Notes: generated by a model not told the origin, from the letters alone. A stretch of 64,000 nucleotides of DNA from Bacillota bacterium (GCA_963169565.1 CAUJDI010000056.1:1-64000); one strand, 5' to 3'; shown: positions 498-32,894, counted from the stretch's first letter. Numbers and translations: made by a program.

Positions 498-574
498 GGG
501 ATTATAGCTCAGCTGGCTAGAGCGCCACGTTGACATCGTGGAGGTCGTTGGTTCGAGCCCAATTAATCCCACCA
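498..574 (+). tRNA. tRNA-Val (anticodon GAC), CCA encoded
   Basis: Acceptor GGGATTA/TAATCCC, D-arm GCTCAGCTGGCTAGAGC, anticodon stem CCACG-TTGACAT-CGTGG, T-arm GGTTCGAGCCC, terminal ACCA. Confidence 0.93.
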
Positions 575-576
575 GG
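530..576 (+). repeat. Putative attL: 47-bp direct repeat overlapping the 3' part of tRNA-Val
   Basis: TTGACATCGTGGAGGTCGTTGGTTCGAGCCCAATTAATCCCACCAGG, identical to 32848..32894. Confidence 0.92.
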
Positions 577-580
577 CAAA

Positions 581-620
581 AAGTCTTGAGAACTCTTAGT
601 TTTCTAGACTTCTTTTTTTC
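581..620 (+). terminator. Intrinsic terminator just inside the element, downstream of tRNA-Val
   Basis: AAGTCT ... AGACTT stem (581-586/606-611) followed by CTTTTTTTC. Confidence 0.6.
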
Positions 621-944
621 ATATTCGTGCTCAATTTAGCTCTACTACCCCCACAACCACCCCCACCAGCTTTTAGGTCTCTTCCGTCCGTTTTATCATC
701 ATCGAATAAAGTATTCAAACCAAGGATATTTTGTTCATCACATACCCTTGCCACTTAAAACTCTTAGAACACTTAAAACAATCTTCCGTTTATGATGATT
801 GTAGGATAGGCAGGATCGAAAACCGAAAACTCTTTCGCTGCTGGTTCTGGCAAATCCTTAGATTTATTGCCCATATTCATCATCCTCGCAATGATAGTTC
901 ATTTCAGTTTTTGTTCCAGCGCAGAAAAGCATTGTTCCATTTTT

Positions 945-1877
945 TCAGGTTTGAGTCCGTTTGCTCTTTGCAGCGATTATATAGATGGTTCTGATTTGCT
1001 GCCGCAACTGCTCATAACAGGCTTCCTCTTTGCCTTCCTCCCGGCAGATCACTTCCGCGGAACAAATATCAATGTGATCAAAAAGCCGACGCTGTTGACC
1101 GGAGACGAGAAAGGCTGCGATGTCCTGAGTGGTAAGATCCCCCTGAGGAATGTCAAACAAGGGATGCCGATCCCCAAAAAGGGGATGATCGCTGTATTTT
1201 GAGACACTGTTTGCCAGATGAAGGTGATTCACCCTGGTATGAAGCGTCTGCATCGCCTGGTTGATATCCAGCCCCATCTGGGCGACATGGCTCGTATCAA
1301 AGGTAATCCCGAAAAGTTTGCTGTCGATCAGGGAAGCGATCTCCATCACCATGTCAGGAGTCCCGACAGACAGGAAAGGCTCGCCGAAGGGATTGAAGAA
1401 CTCCAGCGTGATCTGGGGACAGGCATGCTTGTAGAGCTGATCACCGAAAGCGATCAATTCACGGATGGATCTCACAGTGCTCTGTACAACCGTCTGCCTG
1501 CCCTGCTTCAGGCCTTCTCCGCCGGAGAGGATGAGCATCTTTTTCGCTCCAAGCCGATATGCCTGCTGCAGCAATTTCTTACATGCTGAAACGGCTTCTT
1601 TCCTTGCCGGTTCATTCGGGGACGCGATATCCAGCCTCTCCCTCTTGAGCATGAACCCTGCCAGGAACACCACGGCCAAGTGATGCTCCCTGCAGAATCG
1701 GGCGACTTGATCCAGGTGTCCGTCCGGCCCTTCGTGATAAAACTCCACGGCTGAGAATAATCCATCCGATGCGATCATGTTCAGCGAGTCTTTCAACGCA
1801 TGGTGATCGCTGACAGCCAACGGGAAAACTGCGTTCAGGCACAATCCCAGCGAGAATGGAAATCCTTCCCTGTTCAA
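945..1877 (-). CDS. Sugar phosphate isomerase/epimerase (xylose isomerase-like TIM barrel)
   Basis: 310 aa; ITLEFFNPFGEP, FDTSHVAQMG, VNHLHLAN metal-site-type motifs. Confidence 0.8.
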   Translation of the reverse strand: MNREGFPFSLGLCLNAVFPLAVSDHHALKDSLNMIASDGLFSAVEFYHEGPDGHLDQVARFCREHHLAVVFLAGFMLKRERLDIASPNEPARKEAVSACKKLLQQAYRLGAKKMLILSGGEGLKQGRQTVVQSTVRSIRELIAFGDQLYKHACPQITLEFFNPFGEPFLSVGTPDMVMEIASLIDSKLFGITFDTSHVAQMGLDINQAMQTLHTRVNHLHLANSVSKYSDHPLFGDRHPLFDIPQGDLTTQDIAAFLVSGQQRRLFDHIDICSAEVICREEGKEEACYEQLRQQIRTIYIIAAKSKRTQT

Positions 1878-2881: not shown

Positions 2882-3682
2882 TCACCTTTCATATTTGGAA
2901 AAAAGCGAAACGGGTTTTTGGCGGTCAGACAGCGAAAACGGGGAGACGTCGCTGTTCTCACCGGATTCAGGCGACAATTCCACGGACATATATCCGTCAA
3001 ATCCGTTCACAAGCAGCGTCTGTATGACCGCCGCATGGTCCGTGGTGCCCTCGCCGAAGCGGCAGAACGTTTTCTGGCCGAAGACCCGGTTCTCTTTCAG
3101 ATGAATGTGCTTTGTTTGGCGGGCAAAGCGTTCGGCGAACGCGCGGGGATCGACGCCCTCCGCGTCAAAATGCCCGGTGTCGATGCAGATGCCGACATGC
3201 CGGGAATCCACCTGCCGGAAGATCGCCTCATAATCCTGTTCGTTGGCCAAAACACTGCGGCAATGGTTTTCCAGCAGCAGGATCACGCCGTGCTCCTCCA
3301 AATCGGGGATGAGCAGTCTGAGCTCGCTGATGACGGCTTCAAGCCCGCCGCTGGTACCGCGTTGAAAACCGGACGCCACCACCCGCGAACAGCCAAGTTC
3401 CCTTGCCGCCTGAATGGCCCTGAGCTTATGGCAGTAGTTCATGCAAAGGGCATCCCGGTCGACGCCGCCGAAGGAGCCCACATGCAGCGCGATCGGTACA
3501 AGGCCGTGCTTCAGGCACCGAGCCTTGATGTCCGCTATTCCCGCGGGTGACAAAGTATGCGCATACCAGCAGTTGAACTCAATGAAGCGGTATCCCGCTT
3601 CCTTTGCCTGGGAAAAGGTATTGAAAAAATCATTGTCGCCGAATCCGTCAAAGCTCAGCGAGGAAGCCGCCAATTTCAACAT
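2882..3682 (-). CDS. Sugar phosphate isomerase/epimerase (xylose isomerase-like TIM barrel)
   Basis: LLLENHC, CIDTGHFDAEG, HIHLKEN, MSVELSPES; start chosen at MLKLAAS. Confidence 0.87.
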   Translation of the reverse strand: MLKLAASSLSFDGFGDNDFFNTFSQAKEAGYRFIEFNCWYAHTLSPAGIADIKARCLKHGLVPIALHVGSFGGVDRDALCMNYCHKLRAIQAARELGCSRVVASGFQRGTSGGLEAVISELRLLIPDLEEHGVILLLENHCRSVLANEQDYEAIFRQVDSRHVGICIDTGHFDAEGVDPRAFAERFARQTKHIHLKENRVFGQKTFCRFGEGTTDHAAVIQTLLVNGFDGYMSVELSPESGENSDVSPFSLSDRQKPVSLFSKYER

Positions 3683-3692
3683 ACGTTCGCCT

Positions 3693-4535
3693 CTATCCTT
3701 TGATTCCGGATGTTGCGACACCTTCGATCAGAAGCCGCTGAAAGGTCACAAAGAGCACGAGGATCGGAACGATGGACAGGGTGGACATCGCGAACATCGC
3801 TCCGTATTGGCTGAGGGCCTGCCGGTCGATGAACATCCGCAGGCCCAGCGTGGCCGTATAGGAGGTCGGCGTCCTGAGGTAGATGATCTGCGTAAAAAAG
3901 TCATTCCACGTCCACATAAAGGTGAAGATCGTCGTTGTGATCAGCGCCGGGGCCGCCAGGGGAAGCAGGATGCGGTAGAAAACCGAGTAGTGGTTGCAGC
4001 CGTCAACGATCGCCGCCTCATCCAGGTCCCTGGGAATACCTCTGTAGAACTGGACGATCAGGAAGATAAAAAATGCGTCCGTGGCCAGGAACTTCGGGAT
4101 CACGATCGGCAGGATCGTGTCCACCCATCCCATTTTATGAAAGTACGCGAACTGCGGAACGATCGTCGCATGGACCGGGAGCATCATCGTCATCAGCATC
4201 AGCGAGAAGAAGAGCTTCCTGCCTCGGTACTCCAGGCGCGCGAAAGAATAGGCCACAAGCGAGCAGGAGAGGATATTGCCGATCACCGCCAATACGGAGA
4301 TCAGTATCGAGTTGTAGAAATATGTCGTGAAGGTAACCCTGCCTGAGGAGAGCCAGCCGATGGCATAGTTCTCCAGGGTGAGCTGTCTGGGGATCAGTGA
4401 TAGATCCTTGAAGATCAAGTCCTCCGGCTTGAAGGAGCTGACGACCATCCATACCAGCGGATAGATCAGCACAAGGGCAATGACCGAAACAAGCGCTGTG
4501 CGGATGATCCTGACGGTTTTCGAATCCCGTATCAT
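3693..4535 (-). CDS. Carbohydrate ABC transporter permease (MalG type, CUT1)
   Basis: Multiple TM segments and EAAIVDGCNHYSVFYRILLPLAAPAL (EAA loop). Confidence 0.92.
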   Translation of the reverse strand: MIRDSKTVRIIRTALVSVIALVLIYPLVWMVVSSFKPEDLIFKDLSLIPRQLTLENYAIGWLSSGRVTFTTYFYNSILISVLAVIGNILSCSLVAYSFARLEYRGRKLFFSLMLMTMMLPVHATIVPQFAYFHKMGWVDTILPIVIPKFLATDAFFIFLIVQFYRGIPRDLDEAAIVDGCNHYSVFYRILLPLAAPALITTTIFTFMWTWNDFFTQIIYLRTPTSYTATLGLRMFIDRQALSQYGAMFAMSTLSIVPILVLFVTFQRLLIEGVATSGIKG

Positions 4536-4549
4536 GATGCCGGCCTCCC

Positions 4550-5434
4550 TTAGTGGTATTGCACGTGCTTGCTGAAGGCCTTGAAGGAGAGAAGAGTGAT
4601 GAGGGCGATGATCAGCAGAAGGATCCAGGAGAGCGCGGACGCGTACCCCATGCGCATCTTGCTGAACCCTTCGTTGTAGATGTGCAAGGTATAAAACAGC
4701 AGGCTGTCCAGTACGCCGCCGTTTCCGCCGCTGATGATGTAGGCTTCCGTAAACACCTTGAAGGCGCTGACGATCTGCATGATGACGTTGAACAGGATGA
4801 TCGGGGTCATCATCGGCAGGATGATCCTGGTTGTCTGCTTCATTCTGGTTGCGCCGTCGATCGCCCCTGCTTCCAGCAACTCATTGGGGATCTGCTTAAT
4901 GCCTGCCAGGAAAATGATCATCGGGGATCCGAACTGCCAGACCCTCAGGATGATGAGCGACCAAACCGCGAAACGGGGATCGGCGATCCAGCTGATATTG
5001 GAGATGGAGGTCAGGCCCAGCGCCCTGAACAGCATATTCAGAATGCCGTCCATTCCGAAAACCTGTCTCCATAAAATGGCGATCGCGACGCTGCCGCCCA
5101 GCAGCGAAGGAATATAATAGATTGCGCGGAATGCCGAGAGGAAGGGGATCCCCTTGTTGAGCGCGAAAGCGAGAATCAAGGAAAACAGCAGCTGGAGTGG
5201 CACGGATACGAAAACGTAGACGAACGTTACCCTTACCGCGTTGAGGAAATGGAAATCACGAGTAAACATTTTGACATAGTTTGAAAACCCGATAAAGCTT
5301 GGATCTGATAGCAGATTGAAATTTGTCAGGGAGTAATAGAACGAGTAAGCAAGCGGGATCAATGTGAGCAGCAGAAAACCCAGCAACCACGGTATTAGGA
5401 ATACATATCCCGCCATTTTATCCATCTTTTTCAT
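4550..5434 (-). CDS. Sugar ABC transporter permease (MalF type, CUT1)
   Basis: Multiple TM segments; EAGAIDGATRMKQTTRIILPMMTPII EAA loop. Confidence 0.92.
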   Translation of the reverse strand: MKKMDKMAGYVFLIPWLLGFLLLTLIPLAYSFYYSLTNFNLLSDPSFIGFSNYVKMFTRDFHFLNAVRVTFVYVFVSVPLQLLFSLILAFALNKGIPFLSAFRAIYYIPSLLGGSVAIAILWRQVFGMDGILNMLFRALGLTSISNISWIADPRFAVWSLIILRVWQFGSPMIIFLAGIKQIPNELLEAGAIDGATRMKQTTRIILPMMTPIILFNVIMQIVSAFKVFTEAYIISGGNGGVLDSLLFYTLHIYNEGFSKMRMGYASALSWILLLIIALITLLSFKAFSKHVQYH

Positions 5435-5524: not shown

Positions 5525-6832
5525 TTACTGTGCGTTTTCCGCGATGACGTCGTTGGCGATGTCAATGACGGACTGGGCGGCCTGCTCAGGTGTCATAACG
5601 CCTTCAGCAACCATGTGCGATGCGGACTCGATTTCGCTCTGCACGGCCCATACGCCGGGAGCCTTCGGAATGAAGGGAAGCGTGGTCGCGCCGACACGGC
5701 CGAGGTATTCCGCGGCTTTGACGTCCGAGGGATCTGCGTTCTTGTTCAGTTCAGCCTGGATGGTCTGGTTTCCGATGACGCCAAGCTCCATCTTGAAGAT
5801 CTTCTGGGCTTCCATGTTGTTGACGAAGAAATTGATGTAGCGCGCGGCGAGGTCAGGGTTCTTGGCAGTCTTGGAAATCCCGAACGAGGAGGTAATCAGC
5901 AGGTCGCCGAACTCGTTCTGCCCGCCGGGATGCGTGGGCACGCGGCGGAGCACGATGTCATCTTCGATGCCGTTCTGGAACATTTTATACTGGTTTGCGT
6001 TGGCGAAGAAGAACGCGACTTTGCCCATGGCCAGCGCGCCTTCCTGCCATGCGCGGGCCGCCCATTCCTGTGTCCAGGCGGCGTTGGCGATCGCGCCGGA
6101 CTTGCGCAGGCGGTTCGCGAGGTCATACCAGCCGCTCAGGGTTTCCAGGGTGGGCGCGAACTTGCCTTCCGCGTCGACCCATTCCGTTCCGATGGGGCTG
6201 TTCTGGCGGATCCAGACCCACGCCAGATCGTTGTTGTTGTAGAAGTCCAGTGCGGCGTAAGTGTCTTCGGGGAGCTTTGCCTGGAGTTCGTTCAGGAAGG
6301 CTTCGAACTCAGCCCAGGAGATGTTCTCATCCTCTCCCCAGAGCGTCATGCCGTACTTCTCGACCATGGTCTTGTTGATGATCATGCTCTGGGCGGTGAT
6401 GCCAAGGGAGATCATGTAGAGCTGGTCTTCATACTTGCCGGTCGCGGCGTAGCTCTGGTTCCATTCGCTCAGATCGATCACGCCGTCCTTGACGTACCCG
6501 TCCAGCGGCAGCAGAACGCCCTTGGAGCAGTATTCGCCGATCTGGTTGGACTGGAACTGCACGACGTCCGGGGCGCTTCCGCTGGCGTATGCTGTCGCCA
6601 TGGAGACCCAGTAATCAGCCCAGCCGGGGCTTTCGGTGACGATCTCCACGTTCGGGTTCTCGGCCATGAACAGGTCATTGATGGCGAAATACAGCTTGTC
6701 GCGGTTTGTATTTCCCCACCAGGCAACGCGCAGGACTTCTTTTCCGGAAGCCTGTGCGACCGTGCTCAGCGGCAGCACGAGCAGTACGGTGAACACCAGG
6801 AACAGAGAGACGATTCGTTTCAGGTTTTTCAT
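5525..6832 (-). CDS. Extracellular sugar-binding protein (ABC transporter, SBP family 1)
   Basis: Signal peptide MKNLKRIVSLFLVFTVLLVLPLSTVAQA; SBP1-type sequence. Confidence 0.9.
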   Translation of the reverse strand: MKNLKRIVSLFLVFTVLLVLPLSTVAQASGKEVLRVAWWGNTNRDKLYFAINDLFMAENPNVEIVTESPGWADYWVSMATAYASGSAPDVVQFQSNQIGEYCSKGVLLPLDGYVKDGVIDLSEWNQSYAATGKYEDQLYMISLGITAQSMIINKTMVEKYGMTLWGEDENISWAEFEAFLNELQAKLPEDTYAALDFYNNNDLAWVWIRQNSPIGTEWVDAEGKFAPTLETLSGWYDLANRLRKSGAIANAAWTQEWAARAWQEGALAMGKVAFFFANANQYKMFQNGIEDDIVLRRVPTHPGGQNEFGDLLITSSFGISKTAKNPDLAARYINFFVNNMEAQKIFKMELGVIGNQTIQAELNKNADPSDVKAAEYLGRVGATTLPFIPKAPGVWAVQSEIESASHMVAEGVMTPEQAAQSVIDIANDVIAENAQ

Positions 6833-6858: not shown

Positions 6859-9102
6859 TTACTCTAAAGTAAAATCAAAGTAGTTCTGGGAGAGGATCGC
6901 ACCGTCATCCGCAACAATGGACATGTTGATCCTGTACCCCTTGCCGGCTTCTTCCTTTGGCGCTGGCCAGATGATGTGGTCGGCGATCTCCGCTGAATCC
7001 TCCAAAAGGGTCAAGACATAATCGTGCTCCCTGACGGTTCTTCCGGTGCTTTGCTCGATGATCTCCCAGCGGATGCGCGCCCTGTCGACCGTATGATAAT
7101 GGTCATTGATGATCCAGACCCGGGCGGTGAAGCTCTCTCCGGCCTTGAACACTTTCTTCCGGCCCAGCACATAGGGCGACATGCAGGGCTCCAGGGAGAT
7201 CAGCACCGGTGTGTACACCATCTGCATGGCGTCATATGCCTTGTAGGGGCGGCGATAATAGTCCAGCAGTCCGGATCCGATCATCGGGCAGGCGTCGCAC
7301 CAATAGTACAGGTACATCGTGCCTACGGGGTTGTACTTGCGCTGACGGAGAAACTCGATCTGTTCCTTGACCGAGATCGCCTCATACTCCTGGGTGTTAT
7401 TGATGAACTCCTCAATGGAACGGCCGAGCTCGACCTTTGCGAACTTGAAGGTGTTGGAATAGAACAGGCCCCAGTACTCCCAGAGGTCCCAGTCCGTGAT
7501 CGGCCACAGCTTGTCCTCGGGGATGAAGGTTTTCAGCGTTTCCAGGCAGGGCAGGGACTGCGAACCGAACTCCACGATGTTGGGCGGGATGATCTTGTCC
7601 TTCACGTTCGTATCGCCGTCGGAGCAGCAGCCTGTCATGATGTTCATGACGCCTTCGCGGTAATCGCCCAGATGCACCCAGCGTGTGGGATCGACTGACT
7701 TGAGGGTCTCCTTCAGGATCTGGCAGAGACGGAAGTAGTTGTTCGGCTTGTCCGGCAGGAAATAGATCTCCGGCTCCTTGTAGACCGACCACATGCCCAT
7801 GCAGGCGTGGCTGGTGAGCATGCAGCCCATGTCCCGAATCATATCGGACGCGCGCATGATCAGGTCGTCATCGTCACTGACGCAGTAATGCAGTGGAAAG
7901 ACCTGCCACATCAGAAGCCCGAGCTCGTCGCAGATGCGGTATACGCCATCCTTCTCCACGTGGCTGCCGATACGGATCGCATTGATGTTCATCCGGATCA
8001 TCTTGCTGAAATCCGCCTGCCACATCTCCTCGTTGGCCTCGCTCATCCAGAGGCTGGAAATATAGCGCATGCCCCGCAGGAAGATGCGTTTCCCGTTCAG
8101 GTACCACTTGCCGTACTTCTCGTCGTACTCAATATCCTTGATGCCAAAGCGCATCGTTACTTCGTCTTTTGCCATGCGAAGCCTCAGGGAATACAGGTGC
8201 GGGAAACCATGATCCCAGGTCCACCACAGCTTCGCGTCCTTCACGGTGACGACGAACTTGAATGTCGTATTGCCAGGCGGGAGTACAAGCTCCTTCCTGC
8301 GGCGATGAAGCTCGTCGCCTGCAAAATTGGCTGGCGAAATCAATGCTTCGATCGCGGTGGAAACGGTAACCCCGGTCGTATTGCTGACCGTGACATCCAG
8401 ACAGACCATCGCCTCGCCGGTCGGCTTGTCCTTTCCGTCGCCCTGCCAGTCTTTCCTGAGTACCGTCTTGGTGGTGATCTTGCAGTACGCGATGAAGATC
8501 TCGGGGCGGATGACCAGCGTCACTTCATCCCAGATCCCGGCCGAATTGCCGTCCTGCCTGAAGGACGTCATCGAACCCGGACGGTGCATCGCATCGATCA
8601 TGTGCCCCTTGATCTGCGTGATGGCCTTGGCCTGATGGCGCTGGTATTTCTCCGACAGGGGGGTATCCCTGTCCATGCCCGCGTTGATGTACTCGGTTTC
8701 GTCCCGGGGCGCGCCGTCCCTGACGACAAGCACGTTGTTTTCGCTCCGCAGAATGCCGGTGACGTCAAACTCGAAGGGATTGAAGATTCCCTCGTGTGAT
8801 CCCAGGAACACGTCGTTGAGCCAGACGTCGGCATAATAATCGACCGCGCCGAAGCGGAGGAACACCTGATCCTGCGGATTTCCTGAATGAAAATCGAAGG
8901 AGGTGCGAAACCAGACCGTTCCAAAATAATCCCCGATCTCGGTCAAGTACCAATTGTTCGGTACTTTGATCATTTTCCATGCGGTGACGTCCGCGTCGGA
9001 CGCCTGGAAGCCAAGTTCCTCGCCCTGCAGCGTTTCGTCGATCCTGTACAACCAAGACCCTGAGAGATCTATCTTCTGTCTGCCCTCATGAAGCATAATC
9101 AA
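6859..9102 (-). CDS. Glycoside hydrolase family 2-like protein (atypical KE acid/base motif)
   Basis: 747 aa; jelly-roll N-terminus (FDVTGILRSENNVLVVRDGA), TIM barrel NGKRIFLRGMRYIS, ACMGMWSVYKEPE, NIVEFGSQS. Confidence 0.83.
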   Translation of the reverse strand: MIMLHEGRQKIDLSGSWLYRIDETLQGEELGFQASDADVTAWKMIKVPNNWYLTEIGDYFGTVWFRTSFDFHSGNPQDQVFLRFGAVDYYADVWLNDVFLGSHEGIFNPFEFDVTGILRSENNVLVVRDGAPRDETEYINAGMDRDTPLSEKYQRHQAKAITQIKGHMIDAMHRPGSMTSFRQDGNSAGIWDEVTLVIRPEIFIAYCKITTKTVLRKDWQGDGKDKPTGEAMVCLDVTVSNTTGVTVSTAIEALISPANFAGDELHRRRKELVLPPGNTTFKFVVTVKDAKLWWTWDHGFPHLYSLRLRMAKDEVTMRFGIKDIEYDEKYGKWYLNGKRIFLRGMRYISSLWMSEANEEMWQADFSKMIRMNINAIRIGSHVEKDGVYRICDELGLLMWQVFPLHYCVSDDDDLIMRASDMIRDMGCMLTSHACMGMWSVYKEPEIYFLPDKPNNYFRLCQILKETLKSVDPTRWVHLGDYREGVMNIMTGCCSDGDTNVKDKIIPPNIVEFGSQSLPCLETLKTFIPEDKLWPITDWDLWEYWGLFYSNTFKFAKVELGRSIEEFINNTQEYEAISVKEQIEFLRQRKYNPVGTMYLYYWCDACPMIGSGLLDYYRRPYKAYDAMQMVYTPVLISLEPCMSPYVLGRKKVFKAGESFTARVWIINDHYHTVDRARIRWEIIEQSTGRTVREHDYVLTLLEDSAEIADHIIWPAPKEEAGKGYRINMSIVADDGAILSQNYFDFTLE

Positions 9103-9128: not shown

Positions 9129-11408
9129 TCAGTTGCATGCTTTGATGACTGTCTGGTTGGACGAAAGACGATTTCCTTCGGGATCCCTCGCATCCATCCT
9201 GATGACGTACTCGCCAATGTAATCCATAGGAATGATCCACTCGATCATGTCCAGCACCTTCGCAGAATCAGGCTTTAGCAGGACGTTGCATCGATTCCCA
9301 TACAATGCTTCATCGCTGCCCTTCCGGCAGATCTGCCAGGAAATTTCGGCCTGTACTTCATGGAAATGATCATTGTTCACCCAAACCTTGCCGATGAACT
9401 TCTCACCGCGGTTGTACTTTTTGTCCCTCCCGATCAGATAAGGCGTCCGATTCCATTCCAGGCTGACCAGAACCTGCGTATAGACCGATTTCATCGAATC
9501 ATACACCTGATAGGGTTCCCTGTAATAATCCAGCAGACCGGAGCCCATGATCGGGCAGGCATCGCTCCAGTAGTACAGATACATGGATGCGACAGGCCGG
9601 TACTTACGCTGCCGCAGGACCTCGATCTGCTCCTTGACCACCAAGGCCTCGTAGCGCTGGGAGTTGTCAATGAACTCCTCCAGGGAATGGCCAAGCTCCA
9701 CGCGTCCGCGCTTGAACTGGTTGCGGTAAAACAGGCCCCAGTATTCCCAGACATCCCAGTCGATCGGCCAGAGCTTGTCCACAGGGATGAATTTCTTCAG
9801 GCTTTTCAGGCAAGGGATCGAATCGGCTCCGAACTCAACGATATTCGGCGCGAACTCTGTCTTTAGAATATCTTTGTCCCCGTCCTGGCAGGAGCCGATC
9901 ATGATGTTCTGGACGCCTTCGCGGTAATCGCCTTTGTGGATCCAGCGGATGGGATCGACCGAGCCCAAGGTCTCCTTGAGCACTTCACAGAGCCTGAAAT
10001 AAACGTTGGGCATGTTGGGAAGCGCATAGATCTCAGGTTCCTTGTAGACAGACCACATTCCCATGCAGGCATGGTTGGTAAGCATATATCCCATGTCGCG
10101 CATCATGTCAGACGCCCGGTCGATCACCTCGTCAGAGTCGTCGATGACGTAGTGCAGCGGGAACACCTGCCACATCAGCAGCCCCATCTCATCGCAGAGT
10201 TTGTAGAAACCGTCCTTCTCCACGTGGCTGCCGATACGGATGGAATTGATGTCCATGTCAAGCATTTTTTTGAGGTCCGCTCGCCACATCTCCTCGTTGG
10301 CCTCGCTCATCCAGAGGCTTGAGATATACCGCATGCCCCTTAAAAAGATCTTCTTGCCGTTGAGGTACCATTGTCCGTCCGCGTCGGTCTGGACTTCCTT
10401 GATACCGATCGTGAGCGAAACCCTGTCCGCTTCGAGGCTGAAGTCTGCAGCGTAGAGGTGCGGAAAGCCGTGGTCCCAGGTCCACCACAGCCTGACATCT
10501 TCAAGCGTGACAAACAGCTTGAAGACGTTGTCCCCAGGCTGTACGACCACGTTTCTGGTGATGGCGGCGGACTTTCCGCCTTCAAAGTTTGAGGGCTTCA
10601 CATGAAGGGCGATCGCGGTCTTTACAGCATTCTTTTCCCTGTTGTGTACATATACATCAAACGCGGCCAGTCCGGTGCCGTCCTGTTTGTCCTGCTGATC
10701 CCCCAGCCAGTCCTTTTTATAACCGATCTTCGTATAGGACTTGACATAGCTGATGTGGATATCCGGTTTTACTACGAGCGTCACCGACCCCCATATACCG
10801 CCCGAATTGCCGTCCTGACGGAAGGAAGTCATCGCGCCGGGGCGGTGCATCGCCTCCACCATGTGCCCCTTGATCTGGGTGATGCCCTTGGACTGGTGGA
10901 ATTTATAAGGGTCTGACAGCGGTGTGGCTTCCTTGTCCGTAAGGATATAATCGGTTTTGTCCTTCGGCGCGCTGTCACGCAGGACGATGACGTTTTTTCT
11001 GTCATGGTGGATGAAGTCCGTGACGTCATACTCGAAACTGTTGAACATCCCCTCATGGTATCCAAGATACTGGCCGTTGACCCACACCTCGCTGATGTAA
11101 TCAACACCTTCAAAGCGAAGATATAGATTGCTGCCCTTCAGTTCCCCGGGTACGTCAAACTCCCTGAAATACCAGATGGTACCAAAATAGTCGCCGATCT
11201 CTTCCGTCAGATACCAGTTGTGCGGGACCTTGATGTCGCGCCACGCGGAACGATCCTGGGACTCCAGATAATAACTCTGCCGTTTGCCGACATCGTTCTG
11301 ATCGAGCCTGTATTTCCACACTCCGTCCAGAACAAGCCGAGGCCTGTCGTATAATTCACAGTACATATTGACCGCTCCTATCAACGTTTCTTCCGGATCA
11401 GAGCTCAA
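9129..11408 (-). CDS. Glycoside hydrolase family 2-like protein (paralog of upstream gene product)
   Basis: 759 aa; collinear with the 6859..9102 product; ACMGMWSVYKEPE, NIVEFGADS. Confidence 0.83.
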   Translation of the reverse strand: MSSDPEETLIGAVNMYCELYDRPRLVLDGVWKYRLDQNDVGKRQSYYLESQDRSAWRDIKVPHNWYLTEEIGDYFGTIWYFREFDVPGELKGSNLYLRFEGVDYISEVWVNGQYLGYHEGMFNSFEYDVTDFIHHDRKNVIVLRDSAPKDKTDYILTDKEATPLSDPYKFHQSKGITQIKGHMVEAMHRPGAMTSFRQDGNSGGIWGSVTLVVKPDIHISYVKSYTKIGYKKDWLGDQQDKQDGTGLAAFDVYVHNREKNAVKTAIALHVKPSNFEGGKSAAITRNVVVQPGDNVFKLFVTLEDVRLWWTWDHGFPHLYAADFSLEADRVSLTIGIKEVQTDADGQWYLNGKKIFLRGMRYISSLWMSEANEEMWRADLKKMLDMDINSIRIGSHVEKDGFYKLCDEMGLLMWQVFPLHYVIDDSDEVIDRASDMMRDMGYMLTNHACMGMWSVYKEPEIYALPNMPNVYFRLCEVLKETLGSVDPIRWIHKGDYREGVQNIMIGSCQDGDKDILKTEFAPNIVEFGADSIPCLKSLKKFIPVDKLWPIDWDVWEYWGLFYRNQFKRGRVELGHSLEEFIDNSQRYEALVVKEQIEVLRQRKYRPVASMYLYYWSDACPIMGSGLLDYYREPYQVYDSMKSVYTQVLVSLEWNRTPYLIGRDKKYNRGEKFIGKVWVNNDHFHEVQAEISWQICRKGSDEALYGNRCNVLLKPDSAKVLDMIEWIIPMDYIGEYVIRMDARDPEGNRLSSNQTVIKACN

Positions 11409-20273: not shown

Positions 20274-20298
20274 AAGGCTGCAGAATGGAGCAACAGGA

Positions 20299-21333: not shown

Positions 21334-21356
21334 ACAGGGAAGGAGACCGGAAACAG

Positions 21357-22244: not shown

Positions 22245-22260
22245 GAAGGGAGAAAAGCTC

Positions 22261-23922: not shown

Positions 23923-25203
23923 TTGACGATCATCAAAAGAGCGTACGCGCTGCTGAAGGACTGGAAAAAGGACAGATATGTTTTCGGCCTGGATGTAATG
24001 TCCCGGCTTGGCGGGTTGGCAGCCCCTTTCGGGCGCAGGGCGCTGGTCGTTTCCAACACAACTTACCTGAAGGGGACTGCGGACGCCGTTGAGGACTCAC
24101 TGAAGAAAGCGGGCATCGCCCTCTTGACGGACGTGCCTGTGCCGGACGCGAAACCGAACGCGCCGCGGGAGGACGTGTACAGGATCGTTTCCTACATCCT
24201 GCATCACCGGCCCGACTTCCTGGTAGCGGTGGGCGGCGGCTCGACGATCGACGCCTGCAAGGCAGCCGCTCTTTTATCCGTTCTGGGCAAGGAGGTCTCG
24301 CCGGAGATCGACCGGTATTTCGGGACCGGGGCGGTTACAGAAGCGCTTAAAACGAGCGGCAAAGAGATGCTTCCCGTGATCGCTGTGCAGACCTCCGCTT
24401 CCAGCGGGGCGCACCTGACCAAATACGCCAACATCACAGACCCGGTCATTGGGCAGAAGAAACTGATTGTCGATGAGGCGATCACGCCGGTCGCTTCGCT
24501 GTTTGATTACCGCAGCACAGTCTCGATGCCGGTTTCAGTGTCCATTGACGGAGCGCTGGACGCGATCGCGCATACGTATGAGGTGTTCATAGGAGCGAAA
24601 CCGGAAACCTACGAACTGGCGAAAGAGCTGGCAGAGACAGCCATCGGCCTGGTGGTCGAATACGCTCCGCGTGTGATCAGGGATCCCGGTGATCTGGAGG
24701 CCAGGGAGGCCTTGGGACTGGCGACGGACCTGGGCGGATATGCCATCATGATCGGCGGCACGAGCGGAGCTCACCTGACAAGCTTTTCCCTGGTGGATCT
24801 GGTCGCGCACGGAACGGCCTGCGGCCTGATGAATCCATACTATACGGTTTTCTTTGCCTCAGCGATCCAGCCACAGCTGAAGGGGATGGCCGCGCTTTTC
24901 CATGACCATGGCCTGATGACAGAGCAGGAGACCTCCCTTGAGGGGAGACAGCTTGCCGAGGCGGTCGCCCGGGCGATGATGGACTTCAGCCGCTCCATCG
25001 GCGCGCCTGTCACCCTTGGGGAACTCAAGGGTTTCAGCGAACAGCATGTGGAACGGATCCTCAAGGCGGCGAAGGACCCGCAGCTGAAGATGAAACTGCA
25101 GAACATGCCGGTCCCGATGACGGCTGACGAGGTAGACCTGCTGATGGGGCCGCTGATCCGCGCGGCTGTGGCGGGAGACATGTCGCTGATCAGAAATAAA
25201 TGA
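23923..25203 (+). CDS. Iron-containing alcohol dehydrogenase
   Basis: FLVAVGGGSTIDACKAAALL, Fe-ADH-type architecture. Confidence 0.92.
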   Translation: MTIIKRAYALLKDWKKDRYVFGLDVMSRLGGLAAPFGRRALVVSNTTYLKGTADAVEDSLKKAGIALLTDVPVPDAKPNAPREDVYRIVSYILHHRPDFLVAVGGGSTIDACKAAALLSVLGKEVSPEIDRYFGTGAVTEALKTSGKEMLPVIAVQTSASSGAHLTKYANITDPVIGQKKLIVDEAITPVASLFDYRSTVSMPVSVSIDGALDAIAHTYEVFIGAKPETYELAKELAETAIGLVVEYAPRVIRDPGDLEAREALGLATDLGGYAIMIGGTSGAHLTSFSLVDLVAHGTACGLMNPYYTVFFASAIQPQLKGMAALFHDHGLMTEQETSLEGRQLAEAVARAMMDFSRSIGAPVTLGELKGFSEQHVERILKAAKDPQLKMKLQNMPVPMTADEVDLLMGPLIRAAVAGDMSLIRNK

Positions 25204-25267: not shown

Positions 25268-26536
25268 ATGAAACTGACCCTTCCCTTCGGCAGGACCGGG
25301 ATGGAATGCGAAATCCCAGACGAGCGGATACAGTCCGTTCTGGAAAGCAGACTGGATGAATGGCGTTCGCCTCTGCCGCCGGAAGGCATCGTAAAGGAAG
25401 CGCTCCGGAATCCCATCGGAACGCCCGCCCTGAGCGAGATGGCCAAGGGCCGGAGCAAGGTCGTCATCATCACAAGTGACCATACGCGCCCTGTGCCCAG
25501 CAGACTGCTGATGCCGCTGCTGCTGAAGGAGATCCGCCGCGGAAACCCCGATGCTGAGATCACGATCCTGATCGCCACCGGCTGCCACCGGGGGACCACA
25601 AGGGAGGAACTGGCAGACAAGTTCGGGCCTGAGATCATCCGCTCAGAGCGGATCGAGATCCATGACTGCGACGACAGTAACCATGTGGACATCGGAACTT
25701 TGCCGTCGGGAGGGCGCTGCCGCATCAACCGCCTGGCCGCGGAGGCTGATCTGCTGGTCGCCGAGGGATTCATTGAGCCGCACTTCTTCGCCGGCTTCTC
25801 CGGCGGGCGCAAGAGCGTGATGCCGGGTGTCGCGTCGCGGGAAACGGTGCTCAGCAACCATTGCGCCGGCTTCATCGCGCACCCGAAGGCGCGTGCCGGG
25901 ATCCTTGACGGAAACCCGATCCATGAGGACATGCTCTGGGCCGCCCTGGAAGCTGGACTGGCCTTTATCCTCAACGTCGTGCTCAACGGGAAGAAGGAAG
26001 TGGTGTTCGCGGCGGCCGGAGATCCCGGGAAAGCCCATCAGGCGGGCTGTAATTTCCTGATGCAGCGGTGCGGCGTGTCCGCTCCTTTGGCGGACATCGT
26101 CATCGCGACCAACGGCGGTTACCCCCTGGATCAGAACATCTATCAGGCTGCGAAAGGCATCTGCACCGCCGAGGGCACTGTCAAACCCGGCGGCGTCATC
26201 ATCATGCTGGCCAGGAGCGAGGACGGGCACGGCGGGGAGGACTATTACCGCCAGTTCAGGGACGCTGAAAGCCTGTCCGGACTGCAGGATGAGATCATGC
26301 GGCGCAGCCCGAAAGACACTGAGCCGGACCAGTGGCAGACACAGATCCAGATCAGGGCGCTGCAGAAGGCGTCCATCATCTATGTTTCAGAGGCCGAGGA
26401 TCAAATGGTGCGCGATATGCGCATGATCCCGGCTAAGTCAGTGGATGAAGCGCTGGAGAAAGCCGACCGGCTGCTGGGCCATTCCCGGGGAAAGATCACC
26501 GTGCTGCCCGACGCCGTATCCGTTATCTTCAGGTAG
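25268..26536 (+). CDS. LarA-like nickel-dependent 2-hydroxyacid racemase/epimerase family
   Basis: TSDHTRPVPSRLL, EPHFFAGFSGGRKSVMPGVASRETVLSNHC. Confidence 0.9.
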   Translation: MKLTLPFGRTGMECEIPDERIQSVLESRLDEWRSPLPPEGIVKEALRNPIGTPALSEMAKGRSKVVIITSDHTRPVPSRLLMPLLLKEIRRGNPDAEITILIATGCHRGTTREELADKFGPEIIRSERIEIHDCDDSNHVDIGTLPSGGRCRINRLAAEADLLVAEGFIEPHFFAGFSGGRKSVMPGVASRETVLSNHCAGFIAHPKARAGILDGNPIHEDMLWAALEAGLAFILNVVLNGKKEVVFAAAGDPGKAHQAGCNFLMQRCGVSAPLADIVIATNGGYPLDQNIYQAAKGICTAEGTVKPGGVIIMLARSEDGHGGEDYYRQFRDAESLSGLQDEIMRRSPKDTEPDQWQTQIQIRALQKASIIYVSEAEDQMVRDMRMIPAKSVDEALEKADRLLGHSRGKITVLPDAVSVIFR

Positions 26537-26868: not shown

Positions 26869-27144
26869 TCAAAGCCCCCAACTGTATATCTCGCTGCTGG
26901 GTACAGTTGGTTCGCCTTTATCAGTCACGATCTCAACAACATAGGCCGACCTGGGCAGAGATAGTCTATAAGCTTCCAGCTCTTCGGGCGTGTTTATGAT
27001 GAGGGGCTCATTGACCTTGCACCTGTCACCTGGCTTCTGCTCAAGCACATAGTATGGTGGTAACCCCTTGTAGATCACTACACACAGCCCTTTGCCCAGG
27101 TTGTCTTCCACGGTATCCAACCTTTTTCTCAATGTTGATCTCAT
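26869..27144 (-). CDS. Hypothetical protein
   Basis: 91 aa ORF, stop/start overlap with the next gene (27141..27716). Confidence 0.5.
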   Translation of the reverse strand: MRSTLRKRLDTVEDNLGKGLCVVIYKGLPPYYVLEQKPGDRCKVNEPLIINTPEELEAYRLSLPRSAYVVEIVTDKGEPTVPSSEIYSWGL

Positions 27145-27716
27145 CCCCGCCCCTTCCCTTCCGCGACAGCCTTCTCGATCTCGCTTACCCGGTCTTCAAG
27201 TTCCACCAGTTCAATGCCCTTCAGCATGGACTCCAGCATCTTCATCTCCAGAGCGGCCTGATCCTGATCTATATCCCCGCCCTGGACCCGGACGAGCAGC
27301 TTGCCCAGTTCCTGAAGGATCCCGGTTGCCGTGTCTATCTTCCCGTTCTGTTCTGGTCTGTGAAGGGGAATGTATTCGTCCTTCAGTGATGCCGTGTACT
27401 TCAGACGCATATCCAGCAGCTTCTCCGGCAGCACCATGGACAGCTCTGCCTGTTCCAGCGCGTCATCAATGCGGGCGAGTATGCCTCCCAGCTGCCGGAT
27501 GCGCGCCTCCCTGGTCATATGGAACGCATCATATAATTCCCGAAGCTGATCCGCCTTGTACTGGGCGATCTGTTCTTCCAGCAGGTGGGTATATCGGCTG
27601 GCAGTGCTCTCGCTGATGTGCAGCGCTCTGGCGATCTGCGCGTTGCTCCTTCCCTCCGCCTTCAGACGGATGAAATCAAGCTGCTTGGTAGAACTCTTCA
27701 TTGTGCCTCCACTCAA
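27141..27716 (-). CDS. Helix-turn-helix domain protein of unknown function
   Basis: LKAEGRSNAQIARALHISESTASRYTHLLEEQ HTH followed by coiled-coil-like region. Confidence 0.65.
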   Translation of the reverse strand: MSGGTMKSSTKQLDFIRLKAEGRSNAQIARALHISESTASRYTHLLEEQIAQYKADQLRELYDAFHMTREARIRQLGGILARIDDALEQAELSMVLPEKLLDMRLKYTASLKDEYIPLHRPEQNGKIDTATGILQELGKLLVRVQGGDIDQDQAALEMKMLESMLKGIELVELEDRVSEIEKAVAEGKGRG

Positions 27717-27866
27717 ACCCAGTTGTCCGGCAGAATCTGGTCATGTTCCGCATCTGCTTCTCATCCTTCGACAAGGGATCATGCCCAAGCCCTATTATTG
27801 TGTATTATCAACCCGGAGGTAAGGCCCAAGGCCCATGCTTGCATGCGGATTTGAACGGCAGCGCGC

Positions 27867-28168
27867 TTACCAGTTCTTCAGCGGGCTGGTGTATTTATCC
27901 ATAGCAATCGTGTTGTCACTCCTTGCAGAAAATACCTCTGATTCATACATCGTCCCCAGCCACGTGTCCCTCCTCCGTGCCCAAAAACCGCAGCGATGGC
28001 TCGTTCTCTCCTGACTTTGCTCATGCTTGTCCGCGCCGATTTTACCGGACGCCTCCGCTTCCATCATCTGCCGGCACAGCCACTCCAACATGTTGAGCAT
28101 TGGGTCTTCCATTCTCATGAACTGGAATAGCAATCCCTGAAATCCTTGGTATCCTTGTGCTGAGCCAT
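27867..28168 (-). pseudogene. IS256/Mutator-family transposase remnant (frameshifted and truncated)
   Basis: NMLEWLCRQMMEAEASGKIGADKHEQSQERTSHRCGFWARRRDTWLGTMY matches the IS256 N-terminal region; start MAQHKDTKDF lies in another frame. Confidence 0.75.
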
Positions 28169-28282
28169 TAGGGTTCCCTCCTTGTGAATGTCTTGGCAAC
28201 ATCCATGGTATCGGAGTCCCAATGGCTTTCCCAAATCTTCTTGTCTTGGGCAAAGCTGCGAACTATAGTAGTCTCTATCGAT

Positions 28283-29803
28283 TCATCCTTTTTCTTCTTC
28301 GTTTTTTGGTAGTATTTCTGGATGTACTTCATACAGTGATTCTGGCATTCGCCCAACAACGCCTTGCCGCTCCGGCGGAGGTATCAGTCTGATATATCCT
28401 GCAGCGGATAAACAGGAAAGCGCCTCATCAACCTTTCTGCTTTCTCTGAATTTGTTCCTGTTGTGTAGAATCTGTCGAAGGCCGTATGGGGGAAAAGGTG
28501 ATTTCCCTTGTTTTCTGATTTCCGCAAGTACTTCCTTCGCATCCGGCGTCAATCCTGAAGACTTGCCCGTTGCAACCAGGGCATGGTCGATAAAATAGCG
28601 AGCCAGATTAATAGCAGCATCAAAGTGCTTTTCGCTAATAGGAAGCACCGGATCGATCATTTCTGCCATTCTAAGCAGCCCTGCAATGCGGATAGTGTTA
28701 CCCACAAGCTTGCCTTCCCACCCATTCGCGATGCCACACCAAGCACCATCCGGACCAATGTTCTTCTCCACTTCTGCGGCCCAATTATAGTGAAGCTCCA
28801 GTGCGCTCGCTTCCAGCTTCAGTTCGCGGGCTGTACCGTCATAGGATTGCATTACGAGGGCGTCAAGAATCCCCCCATATCTCCTTGCTGTATCTGCGCT
28901 AACAGGCCATGCTGTCCTTGCATCCCTATGTCCCAGCAGAGAGCGGGGGATACAATACAGAAAACGCGCGCACAAACCACGTTCCAGCAGCGCCTCGTTC
29001 CCCAGGAACCGCTCAAGTACCTGGGGCTGTACTGCCAGTAGAATAGCAAGGGAGGCATGTTCAATCACAACAGGTTCCCGACCAATCCGCTCAACGGCGA
29101 CTGGTTCACCGGAATAAGCCTGAAGTAGCACATCGATGTTTGTCAATTGATTATATTGTCCGGAAATGATGTTGATGAGCCCGCCTTCAGCGGAGGCAAA
29201 GGACAGGGTGCCGCCGTTGTCGGACATTGCCTTGGCGAGAGCTTCCGGAGTAGCGTCCGTCAGAGGCGGGCTGTACAGCTTGACCTCAGGAAGATTCGCT
29301 ATCTTGTCCTGCAGTAACCCTGCCCCAGTTTCATCACCCTTCGCGATGGCTTTCGCCATCTGTTTCTCAAGGACAGATCGCTTTAGGTTAATTGCAGACC
29401 TATCTTTCGCTTTCAAATCATTGATCAGTTTGCCCATGTTCCTGATCGGCTGCAGCACAGAGGACAGAACAGAGGACTTCCGTTCTGATGGTGGAGCCAC
29501 GATGGCGATATATAATTGTGTTGGTTCCCTGTAGCCCGGCAAGACGGATACACTGGTACCCAGGCAAGCGATAGACAGCGCGCCCAACACAGCACATCCT
29601 GTCATATCAATAGGAACCTGGAGCGATTCGGCCAATTCAACAGCATAATCCCTGAACGCTGGAGGGAAGCTGTCAACAGGGAAGAAAGCTGTTGGTTTTC
29701 CATCCGGCAGCGGGCCCCATGGCCGCTCAGGTCCCAGCAGAAGCTGCTGTGCTTCAGCTTTTTGCAGTAAGGCTTCGTATTCGGCCAGGTCGAATGTGCT
29801 CAT
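28283..29803 (-). CDS. DUF3987 domain-containing protein
   Basis: 506 aa; PPSERKSSVLSSVLQP and overall DUF3987-like sequence. Confidence 0.82.
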   Translation of the reverse strand: MSTFDLAEYEALLQKAEAQQLLLGPERPWGPLPDGKPTAFFPVDSFPPAFRDYAVELAESLQVPIDMTGCAVLGALSIACLGTSVSVLPGYREPTQLYIAIVAPPSERKSSVLSSVLQPIRNMGKLINDLKAKDRSAINLKRSVLEKQMAKAIAKGDETGAGLLQDKIANLPEVKLYSPPLTDATPEALAKAMSDNGGTLSFASAEGGLINIISGQYNQLTNIDVLLQAYSGEPVAVERIGREPVVIEHASLAILLAVQPQVLERFLGNEALLERGLCARFLYCIPRSLLGHRDARTAWPVSADTARRYGGILDALVMQSYDGTARELKLEASALELHYNWAAEVEKNIGPDGAWCGIANGWEGKLVGNTIRIAGLLRMAEMIDPVLPISEKHFDAAINLARYFIDHALVATGKSSGLTPDAKEVLAEIRKQGKSPFPPYGLRQILHNRNKFRESRKVDEALSCLSAAGYIRLIPPPERQGVVGRMPESLYEVHPEILPKNEEEKG

Positions 29804-30372
29804 TATTTACCTCCTGCCATCATTAGCAATTCTGTAGGACCGGCATCCTCCAGCTGGCACAACTCAGCATCAGCGTTAGCAGCATCCTGTACAGCCTGCC
29901 AGAAAGAGGGGAGTTCCGCACAGATTTCAGGGTTGTCAACCATAGCGGCAATGGTGTCGGCCTTATCGCGGGATTGATGCAGCTGATCGCAAAGAGAACT
30001 CCAGCGATGGCCTTTGAAGGTATCCAGGACTCGCTTCAAGTCCATCGCGGAAGGGCCTCTGCGGAATGTCGGGGCATCGCGTTCTGGCTCGATGATGTTG
30101 AAGTCTACAGCTAAGGCGCGCGCCGCTTCCAACGCGGAAACCCCCAGAGCTTTTTGATAGAGCTCGATGGCCCCGCCACGCTCTTGACAACCGAAACAGA
30201 AGAAGTGGCCATCTGGGTAGAAGGTCAGCGAAGGGGTTTTTTCCCTGTGAATGGGGCAAAGCGCGACGAATCGGTTGCCTCGCCTGCGTAACTTGATGTT
30301 TAGCCGCTTCGCCGCATCCGCTGCCGGGATGTCCCGCACCGCGCTGAACAGTGCCTCATACGGACTGGACAT
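29803..30372 (-). CDS. CHC2 zinc-finger (primase-type) domain protein
   Basis: CPIHREKTPSLTFYPDGHFFCFGCQERGGAIELYQK. Confidence 0.9.
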   Translation of the reverse strand: MSSPYEALFSAVRDIPAADAAKRLNIKLRRRGNRFVALCPIHREKTPSLTFYPDGHFFCFGCQERGGAIELYQKALGVSALEAARALAVDFNIIEPERDAPTFRRGPSAMDLKRVLDTFKGHRWSSLCDQLHQSRDKADTIAAMVDNPEICAELPSFWQAVQDAANADAELCQLEDAGPTELLMMAGGK

Positions 30373-30563
30373 TACTCGTCCTCCAGCTTAGCTGCCTCAG
30401 ATTGCTTGGAGATCCAAGCTTCAAGCTCTCTGACAGGAATCAACACACGCCTGCCAATCCTTACAACTGGGAAATCCTTCCGCTTGGTCAGCCCCCACGC
30501 TATAGAGAGGGAGATATCAAGTCTCTTTCCCATCTCTGGGACACTGATTAGTAATTTCTCCAT
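30372..30563 (-). CDS. Excisionase-like helix-turn-helix protein
   Basis: 63 aa; ISVPEMGKRLDISLSIAWGLTKRKDFPVVRIGRRVLIPVRELEAWI. Confidence 0.8.
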   Translation of the reverse strand: MEKLLISVPEMGKRLDISLSIAWGLTKRKDFPVVRIGRRVLIPVRELEAWISKQSEAAKLEDE

Positions 30564-30726
30564 TCATTCCTCCATGAATCGTTGACATCTCTTGTGTCAT
30601 GTTATATTATCTGACACAACAAGGTGTGGCCTAATATTATGGCCATGTTCTTGAGACGTCAAGGGTCATGCGTGTCAAATATATATTTTGACACGTATAG
30701 GAACAAACTTTAGGAGGAACAGTTTT

Positions 30727-31440
30727 ATGGCACGGAAAGAAAAGCAAGGGATAGGAAAGCGAATAGAGGAACTACGAAAGCGAAAAGAGCTTACCCAGGA
30801 CGAGTTGGCAAAAGCGCTTAATATGACACGATCAAACCTCAATATGTGGGAATTAGGTGAGCGTGAGCTGAAGGCCAGAGACTTACAAGATATTGCTGAT
30901 TATTTCGGCGTAACAACAGATTATCTGATATATGGAAGGGAAACCCAGAACATTGACATATACCGCGCAACAGGCCTTTCACAGTCTGCTATTGAAACCC
31001 TCAGGAAATTTAAGGACAGCGATATAGCCCTTGGCAGCACAGAAAGCGCTGGGAAGTGCGACGCATTGAGCAAGGCGCTTTCCAACAGCGATTTGCTCAA
31101 TGTCTTGACTTCGTTGATGCTGGTTCAGCAGGGGGAGTCGGGATATTATGAGAGTTCCTATCTATCAAGTGATAGAAACTTTTATAATGTCGAATGTTCC
31201 CCGGATAGTTTCAGTGCGTTTTTATCCTTTCGGTTGCAGTTGATCATCCATGCAATAAGAACGGGCGATCAATCGATCTTCGCTTCATACGCCCCAGCAA
31301 ATCAGAGACCAAAGGATTTTGCAAAGCGTTATGGAAGACAAAACTCAATAGAAAGGCTAAAAAAACAACTTAATGCCTTAGAACAGGAAGAAGCAACGTG
31401 CGAAGAGGAAGGTGCACAAGATGGCAAAGAGAGCAAATAA
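30727..31440 (+). CDS. XRE-family HTH repressor-like regulator
   Basis: GKRIEELRKRKELTQDELAKALNMTRSNLNMWELGERELK; RBS AGGAGG. Confidence 0.92.
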   Translation: MARKEKQGIGKRIEELRKRKELTQDELAKALNMTRSNLNMWELGERELKARDLQDIADYFGVTTDYLIYGRETQNIDIYRATGLSQSAIETLRKFKDSDIALGSTESAGKCDALSKALSNSDLLNVLTSLMLVQQGESGYYESSYLSSDRNFYNVECSPDSFSAFLSFRLQLIIHAIRTGDQSIFASYAPANQRPKDFAKRYGRQNSIERLKKQLNALEQEEATCEEEGAQDGKESK

Positions 31441-32596
31441 TGAAGGAACGATCCGGCAGCGCCCTGATGGCACATGGGAAGGCCGCTTTTCTGTTGGGTA
31501 TACCGCACAAGGCAAGCGCGTAAGAAGAAGCGTCTACGGTGGTTCCCAGGAGGAAGTAACCAGGAAATTGCGCGAAGTTCTGCGACAGCTGGACAGGGGA
31601 GAATACGCCGACCCATCAGAGATCACTGTGGTAAACTGGCTTGATACCTGGTTTAATGTGTACGGCAAGCCGCGCTGGCGGGACAGCACCGCGGCAGAAC
31701 ACTACAGGAATATTAAGAACAACCTGAAGCCCAGCCTGGGACGGTACAAGCTGCAGAAACTCAGACCGGACCATATCCAGGCGTACATCAACCATCAGGT
31801 CGAAATAGGCCGCGCACCTGCCAGCATCAGAAAGCAGCTGGAGCCGCTCAAGGCCTCCCTTAAACAGGCAGTCATCAATAACCTCATCATAAAGGACCCT
31901 TCATTGCATCTGTCAATGCCAGCAATGTCCACTCGGGAGATTGAACACCTGACGATTGAGGAGCAGCAGAAGTTGGTGGAGGCATTGCCGCAAACCACTG
32001 CAGGCCGGGCATTGCGATTCATTCTGGGCACTGGATTGAGGGCTTCAGAGCTCTGCGGTCTGCGTTGGCAGGATATTAACGGCGACTCCTTCACCATCAG
32101 ACAGGCCGCGCAGCGTGTCCTCGACCTTAGTGATCATTCTGGCGGACCGAAATACAAGCTCTCGGTCTCTCCTCCCAAGACAAAGGCCGGGCGGAGGACC
32201 GTCCCGCTCATGGAAAGGATGCTCACCCTGCTGGCAGAGCAAAAAGAGGAGCAAATGAAACAACGCCTCCGTGCCGGGTCCGCCTGGGCTGGAAGAATCC
32301 CTGGTCATGGTGAAACCTATGTATTTGCGAATGAACTGGGCAGCGCTATTGACCGCTGCAACCTGGGACGGGTCCTGCGCATTAGCCTGGACACTGCAGG
32401 TGTGAAGCGAGTGGGGGTCCATGCCCTGAGACACACCTTCGCCACCAATTGCATCAGGGCTGGTGTAGATGTCAGGACACTCTCAGAAATGATCGGACAT
32501 ACAAAAGTGGCCTTTACACTGCAGCAGTATGTCCATACTAACCTGACCACGATGCGGGCAGCGATGAGCGCGGTTGAGGGTATGAGAGGGTTTTAA
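31421..32596 (+). CDS. int: Tyrosine-type site-specific integrase
   Basis: LGTGLRASELCGLRW, HALRHTFATNCIRAGVDVRTLSEMIGHTKVAFTLQQYVHT. Confidence 0.96.
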   Translation: MAKRANNEGTIRQRPDGTWEGRFSVGYTAQGKRVRRSVYGGSQEEVTRKLREVLRQLDRGEYADPSEITVVNWLDTWFNVYGKPRWRDSTAAEHYRNIKNNLKPSLGRYKLQKLRPDHIQAYINHQVEIGRAPASIRKQLEPLKASLKQAVINNLIIKDPSLHLSMPAMSTREIEHLTIEEQQKLVEALPQTTAGRALRFILGTGLRASELCGLRWQDINGDSFTIRQAAQRVLDLSDHSGGPKYKLSVSPPKTKAGRRTVPLMERMLTLLAEQKEEQMKQRLRAGSAWAGRIPGHGETYVFANELGSAIDRCNLGRVLRISLDTAGVKRVGVHALRHTFATNCIRAGVDVRTLSEMIGHTKVAFTLQQYVHTNLTTMRAAMSAVEGMRGF

Positions 32597-32847
32597 GTGT
32601 TTTAAGTGGTAGGTTGATACATTTTAACGTTTTTAGTGGACAGTATAGAAGCATTATCCAGTATTATGTATAGATACACTACTGTTTGTATTTTTATTCT
32701 TCCCTCTGCCACCCCCATTACTACCCCCACAACCACCCCCACCGCGATAATACAGGGTAGTACGCAATAATATCAATTACTCGACTTCCGTTGATTTACC
32801 TACACTAATTAGTACTCACTAAAACAGGAAAACAGCTTAAAACGGCA

Positions 32848-32894
32848 TTGACATCGTGGAGGTCGTTGGTTCGAGCCCAATTAATCCCACCAGG
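32848..32894 (+). repeat. Putative attR: 47-bp direct repeat (3' tRNA-Val fragment)
   Basis: Identical to 530..576; no 5' tRNA half. Confidence 0.92.

Follow-up and report, generated by a model that had tools for sequence, protein, structure and literature searches.

The window analysed here is a stretch of 64,000 nt from an uncultured Bacillota bacterium (GCA_963169565.1 CAUJDI010000056.1:1-64000), and all coordinates are counted from its base 1. Positions 530-32894 are likely to represent a tyrosine-integrase element of the phage/satellite type that inserted into a tRNA-Val(GAC) gene and gained about 25 kb of foreign cargo for the use of glycosides. Here a whole nutrient pathway with its own regulation is carried by an element without conjugation genes, which makes for a clean case open to testing. 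Sister elements display the bare backbone, and it looks as though an entire nutrient-use pathway may be able to pass from one bacterium to another as a single unit.

The attachment site in tRNA-Val

The integration target is a tRNA-Val(GAC) gene (498-574, plus strand; ARAGORN), the 3′ part of which is restored by the element. A repeat search revealed a 47-bp direct repeat, TTGACATCGTGGAGGTCGTTGGTTCGAGCCCAATTAATCCCACCAGG, that overlaps the 3′ end of this tRNA at both borders, forming attL (530-576, plus strand) and attR (32848-32894, plus strand). The two cores, 32.3 kb apart, are identical over 47 bp, and the extended repeat matches at 52 of 54 positions. Allowing up to three mismatches, the window contains exactly two copies of the final 25 bases of the tRNA (0 copies expected by chance), and the whole genome holds only these two copies of a 30-base piece of the repeat. 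Both the perfect repeat over the tRNA 3′ end and the integrase at the right end, as described in the initial annotation, were therefore confirmed.

That annotation had overlooked a family of arm-type repeats. The motif CYACCCCCAY recurs with a tandem spacing of 12 bp, with two units at the left end (starting at 645 and 657; P′ side, 643-667, plus strand) and three at the right end (32709, 32721 and 32733; P side, 32707-32743, plus strand); the window has seven hits in all, compared with an expectation of 0.54. This tandem motif also lies at a similar distance behind tRNA-Val in the congeners G002 and G007, whose integrases, at the same tRNA, are 69% identical to that of the window, and behind tRNA-Thr in G275. 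These repeats are the expected arm-type sites for the integrase.

Folding predicted a terminator hairpin with a T-run directly behind the tRNA (581-619, plus strand), supplied by the element; the elements of relatives each bring their own. The displaced native terminator lies to the right of attR (32897-32935, plus strand; -21.1 kcal/mol) and matches that of the uninterrupted tRNA-Val of G003. The empty tRNA-Val site anticipated among relatives was found in the latter genome, where a single-copy tRNA-Val with its own terminator is accompanied by nothing recognisable as an element; the tRNA is the same, but gene neighbourhoods differ between the species. The predicted empty attB consists of the restored tRNA-Val followed by AGGTAAGAAGCCCCTGAAGG, and the predicted attP junction of the circle joins 32847 to 577.

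The same tRNA is occupied in other congeners. Related integrases are present at tRNA-Val in G002, G007 and G006, whereas in G005 the site holds replication genes of the backbone, in the same reversed orientation as in the window, together with a sugar transporter but no integrase. In G010 (C73, 19595-30751; L059), an 11.1-kb islet, also lacking an integrase, lies between tRNA-Val and a second att copy, and encodes GH4, YdjC, an ABC importer, a Gfo/Idh protein and an RpiR regulator. Taken together with the window, the contents of G005 and G010 show that catabolic genes are found repeatedly at this tRNA-Val within the genus. As a side observation, the G010 islet resembles a cis-mobilizable islet.

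The mobility backbone and its relatives

The backbone genes occupy about 6 kb (approximately 26869-32596). Two of them read rightward, i.e., an XRE/Cro-type repressor (30688-31440, plus strand) and the tyrosine integrase (31412-32596, plus strand; Phage_integrase, 1e-23, plus a SAM-like N-terminal domain), which stops 251 bp short of the right repeat. On the minus strand are a CHC2 zinc-finger primase fragment (29803-30372), a DUF3987 replicative helicase/primase-like protein (28283-29803; PF13148, phrog_2373), an N-terminal remnant of an IS256-type transposase (27867-28253; PF00872) and, as the last backbone genes, two small genes (26869-27716) for a 91-residue protein and a 191-residue helix-turn-helix (HTH) protein, the latter a weak match to the small subunit of terminase (E 0.005). 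The frames of integrase, repressor, primase and helicase are all open, and integrase and repressor diverge from the primase/replication module, as in satellites of the phage-inducible chromosomal island (PICI) type. The GC content is 55% in the element and 51% in the backbone, compared with 63-67% in the host. The IS256-type remnant has a counterpart in G005 (C53, 8780-8992) that is 56% alike, both lying in or beside the backbone; such remnants are perhaps traces of how the cargo was joined.

Relatives of the DUF3987 protein were found in 27 of 301 genomes of the family. Compact sisters with the same order (integrase-XRE, CHC2-DUF3987), bounded by repeats and ranging from 7.5 to 10.6 kb, reside at other tRNAs: at tRNA-Thr (83-bp repeats, 10.6 kb), at tRNA-Ser (23-bp repeats, 9.4 kb), where the large subunit of terminase and a major head protein are also encoded, and at tRNA-Trp (22-bp repeats, 7.5 kb). 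No catabolic genes were seen in these repeat-bounded sisters. Of the proposed check for the same backbone with other cargo, the recurrence of the backbone held, with no catabolic cargo in these sisters; the view that the element is larger than a usual satellite (32.3 kb) was borne out by the size of these sisters. Because the backbone recurs in compact elements, including one that carries genes for terminase and capsid, it is of the phage/satellite type and, judged on gene content, we read the element as such a backbone with about 25 kb of added cargo.

Two observations concern the sisters themselves. The tRNA-Ser element (G068:C97, 16469-25871; L200, L201), which carries integrase, XRE, primase, DUF3987, major head protein and terminase genes, looks like a capsid-encoding satellite or a tiny prophage. 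Another contig of that genome, G068:C58, was considered as a case of the same backbone with different catabolic cargo and was rejected, since the catabolic genes fall outside the 10.6 kb that its 83-bp repeats enclose; by BLASTP, the small HTH and 91-residue genes of the window showed no similarity to those of G068:C58.

The open frames, the identity of the att cores and the intact arm sites on both sides also bear on whether the island is now fixed, i.e., an element that was formerly mobile and fell into decay once its cargo had been delivered. All three argue against decay, although the IS256 remnant would fit it, as would the integrase-less backbone pieces at the same tRNA in G005 and the integrase-less, att-bounded islet in G010; we regard a fixed island as possible but doubtful.

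A further att copy separating cargo from backbone, on which the view of the element as one unit turned, was not found in the window, using 25 bases and up to three mismatches. This argues against a composite origin, in which a cargo island and a satellite stood in tandem and the att between them was lost. Such an origin could account for the position of the integrase, which lies beside or facing the tRNA in most sisters but faces the far att here, and tandem or accreted elements do exist at this tRNA in G010. However, the joining of two standard elements would place the integrase at the inner att rather than facing attR, and an inversion of the interior accounts for the layout equally well; a composite therefore seems unlikely to us.

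The HMG-CoA reductase/lyase cluster and the cargo

The cargo (945-26536, about 25.6 kb) encodes 11 enzymes, two PCC-domain proteins, two importer sets and one sensor/regulator pair, in agreement with the earlier description of about 6 kb of backbone and about 25 kb of regulators, two importers and at least ten enzymes. Central to it are adjacent genes for an HMG-CoA lyase-like DRE-TIM metallolyase (HMGL; 21330-22244, plus strand; NF004283, 365 bits, cut-off 246) and a class I-like HMG-CoA reductase (HMGR; 22261-23571, plus strand). Within the family, this HMGR was found in no other genome (one of 301), so that the cargo is foreign. Among 85,462 species genomes scanned, HMGR at 64-77% identity was found in 25 bacterial loci from Clostridia, Spirochaetes and Planctomycetota, and archaeal matches were at about 40%; in a tree, the window HMGR fell inside the bacterial clade (98/94 support, group of 16), with archaeal sequences outside.

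HMGL adjoins HMGR in nearly all of the bacterial loci, and the recurring neighbours are zinc alcohol dehydrogenase, RraA, PCC, importer B or A, GH2b, Gfo and TIM2. In L094, ten genes, 37-80% identical to their counterparts, are colinear with window 12167-23571. Chromosomal copies of the set, often including PCC and GH2, are scattered among Clostridia and Spirochaetes. Proximity to rpsB/tsf/pyrH marks the cluster as chromosomal in L089, L090 and L094, and no integrase of the window kind was found in the flanks of these three loci. The clusters of L089-L113 sometimes also include an apiosidase-like glycosidase (judged by eye) and a hydroxyacid dehydrogenase. No description of an HMG-CoA reductase/lyase sugar cluster turned up in our literature searches. 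A conserved, apparently catabolic cluster in plant-degrading anaerobes, with Ruminiclostridium cellobioparum among its carriers, is brought to light, which could explain the use of some plant glycosides by bacteria from guts, termites and digesters.

HMG-CoA synthase was absent from all seven carrier genomes tested, and in none of them did a mevalonate kinase score over the cut-off. By contrast, ispH was over the cut-off in six, including the genome of the window, with a weaker match in the seventh, and dxr was present in five; dxr was not found in the window's own genome, the assembly of which is 90% complete. With no HMG-CoA synthase and the methylerythritol phosphate (MEP) route present, the reductase is unlikely to make isoprenoid precursors. 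An HMGR for isoprenoid synthesis within an island of mixed, unrelated genes would agree with the conservation of four catalytic residues, but is very improbable, being already contradicted by these distributions and by the more than 20 loci in which HMGR is paired with genes for an HMG-CoA lyase, a sugar importer, an aldolase and a dehydrogenase.

The four residues are Glu, Lys, Asp and His, conserved in the alignment, which we take to be the known catalytic positions. The reductase scored 284 bits with TIGR00533 and 26 bits with TIGR00532, and did not match the class II, NAD-dependent degradative type. The lyase keeps the metal ligands and the cysteine loop, but has HxHK in place of the canonical HxHD, a change to HxH[K/R/Q] that runs throughout its clade. 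Given the lack of HMG-CoA synthase and the use of the MEP route, HMGR is probably catabolic, acting on a glycoside or mevalonate-like substrate, and the pair may oxidise and cleave a mevalonate- or HMG-like intermediate derived from a glycoside. In Pseudomonas mevalonii, HMG-CoA reductase and lyase genes (mvaAB) stand side by side and serve mevalonate breakdown. The window resembles this in the adjacency of the two genes but differs in the class I-like reductase, the altered lyase motif and the setting of both among genes for glycoside import and hydrolysis.

The rest of the cargo is arranged in two blocks. On the minus strand are a xylose-isomerase-like TIM barrel of the sugar isomerase/epimerase type (945-1877; PF01261), a Gfo/Idh/MocA oxidoreductase (1874-2872; PDB relatives include DgpA and inositol dehydrogenases), a second xylose-isomerase-like TIM barrel (2882-3721), the two CUT1-type permeases of importer A (3693-5434, i.e., 3693-4535 and 4550-5434; PF00528) and its solute-binding protein (5525-6832; PF01547), GH2-type glycoside hydrolases a (6859-9102) and b (9129-11408), and PCC (DUF296) domain protein 1 (11398-11919; PF03479). 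On the plus strand are a sensor histidine kinase (Cache/HAMP/His_kinase; 12167-13951), a response regulator with an AraC-type DNA-binding domain (13948-15516), PCC (DUF296) domain protein 2 (15818-16282), importer B (16335-19533; solute-binding protein 16335-17660, permeases 17739-18626 and 18604-19533), an RraA-like aldolase (19572-20273; PF03737) and a zinc alcohol dehydrogenase resembling L-threonine 3-dehydrogenase (20299-21333), followed, beyond the lyase and reductase, by an iron-containing alcohol dehydrogenase (23923-25203) and a member of the LarA nickel-dependent lactate racemase family (25268-26536; NF033504, 588 bits, cut-off 460).

The cargo is supported as a coherent, regulated catabolic set. 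The initial annotation's complete-looking pathway stands for the genes that recur elsewhere; the island lacks ABC ATPases and a CoA transferase. Similarly, its two importers are real as CUT1-type sets of a binding protein and two permeases each, but neither has its own ATPase. It would fall to the host to provide the ABC ATPases and any CoA-transfer step.

Proposed mechanism, known systems and flanks

Insertion at the 3′ end of tRNA-Val would restore the tRNA and supply a new terminator, and the cargo would have been gained between the left end and the replication genes. Upon relief of repression, integrase bound to the core and the arm repeats of both sides would excise a circle at the predicted junction, which may replicate from the DUF3987/CHC2 module. 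Arrival in new cells would be passive, by helper phage, transduction or natural uptake, followed by reinsertion in tRNA-Val. Under control of the resident sensor kinase and response regulator, the two importers, GH2 enzymes and Gfo/TIM enzymes would take up and open glycosides, and RraA, the zinc alcohol dehydrogenase, HMGR (operating oxidatively, or with an analogue as substrate) and the HMGL-like enzyme would cleave a branched mevalonate- or HMG-like intermediate toward central metabolism.

Several points weigh against this reading of the element. Neither excision nor transfer is directly evident. No relaxase family occurs among the annotated element genes (oriT was not searched for), nor are packaging genes of its own recognised among them. 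Its size exceeds the limit of about 20 kb for ordinary satellites (PMC12595487), and the IS256 remnant, together with an integrase at the end far from the tRNA, indicates that it has been rearranged. Neither an ABC ATPase nor a CoA transferase is in the island, and the changed HxHD motif may mean that HMGL has a substrate other than HMG-CoA. Type IV secretion genes were likewise absent from the annotated element genes, which agrees with the earlier claim of a non-conjugative, tRNA-integrated element. Of the label satellite/integrative mobilizable element (IME), the first half suits the phage/satellite-like backbone; lacking a relaxase, the element is not, on its annotated genes, a strict IME, its backbone appearing phage/satellite-like rather than mobilizable.

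The general class is already known from tRNA islands with metabolic cargo, tycheposons and I55-like elements (PMC10872708, PMC12595487). The element shares with tRNA/tmRNA islands lacking transfer genes (Islander-type; I55-family, PMC12595487) the insertion at a tRNA 3′ end, direct repeats, a tyrosine recombinase, variable cargo and the absence of genes for autonomous transfer. However, the cargo of the I55 family is, as described, mainly defence (PMC12595487), whereas here it is a 25-kb catabolic pathway. Tycheposons (Prochlorococcus; in Methylophilaceae, PMC10872708) are tRNA-bounded, 4-200 kb long, and carry an XerD-type tyrosine recombinase and nutrient-use cargo. The window element has the tRNA border, a tyrosine recombinase and nutrient cargo, but its host is of another phylum (Clostridia-like) and its backbone is of the CHC2/DUF3987/XRE phage type. 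With PICIs and their capsid-encoding relatives it shares the integrase and repressor divergent from a primase/replication module, and a sister carries terminase and capsid genes; unlike them, it is 32 kb long, with catabolic cargo, no recognised packaging genes and no known helper. What appears to be new is the combination of a backbone of the satellite type with a 25-kb catabolic set that looks complete, along with the HMGR/HMGL cluster in its conserved form. We suggest only tentatively that oversized satellite-derived elements might move whole catabolic pathways among anaerobes via the tRNA-Val hot spot, with the HMGR/lyase pair, its lyase active site changed, degrading a branched plant-glycoside intermediate by a pathway absent from the literature searched.

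As for the flanks, no right-flank synteny was found beside tRNA-Val in congeners, and a comparison with G009 showed that congeners differ in the placement of about 40 kb, the tRNA included. Because of this host rearrangement, there is no exact same-place empty-site comparison. Base 1 of the window is also the start of the contig (106,831 bp), which accounts for the short left flank. In G009 (C74), the left-flank gene (window 1-349) lies directly beside a homologue of window 40646-42625, and tRNA-Val is on another contig. Just outside attR, at 33136-36282, is a lone gene for a type IV methyl-directed restriction enzyme with a GC content of 39% (PADLOC mREase_IV, 762 bits), which is a separate foreign insertion beside the element.

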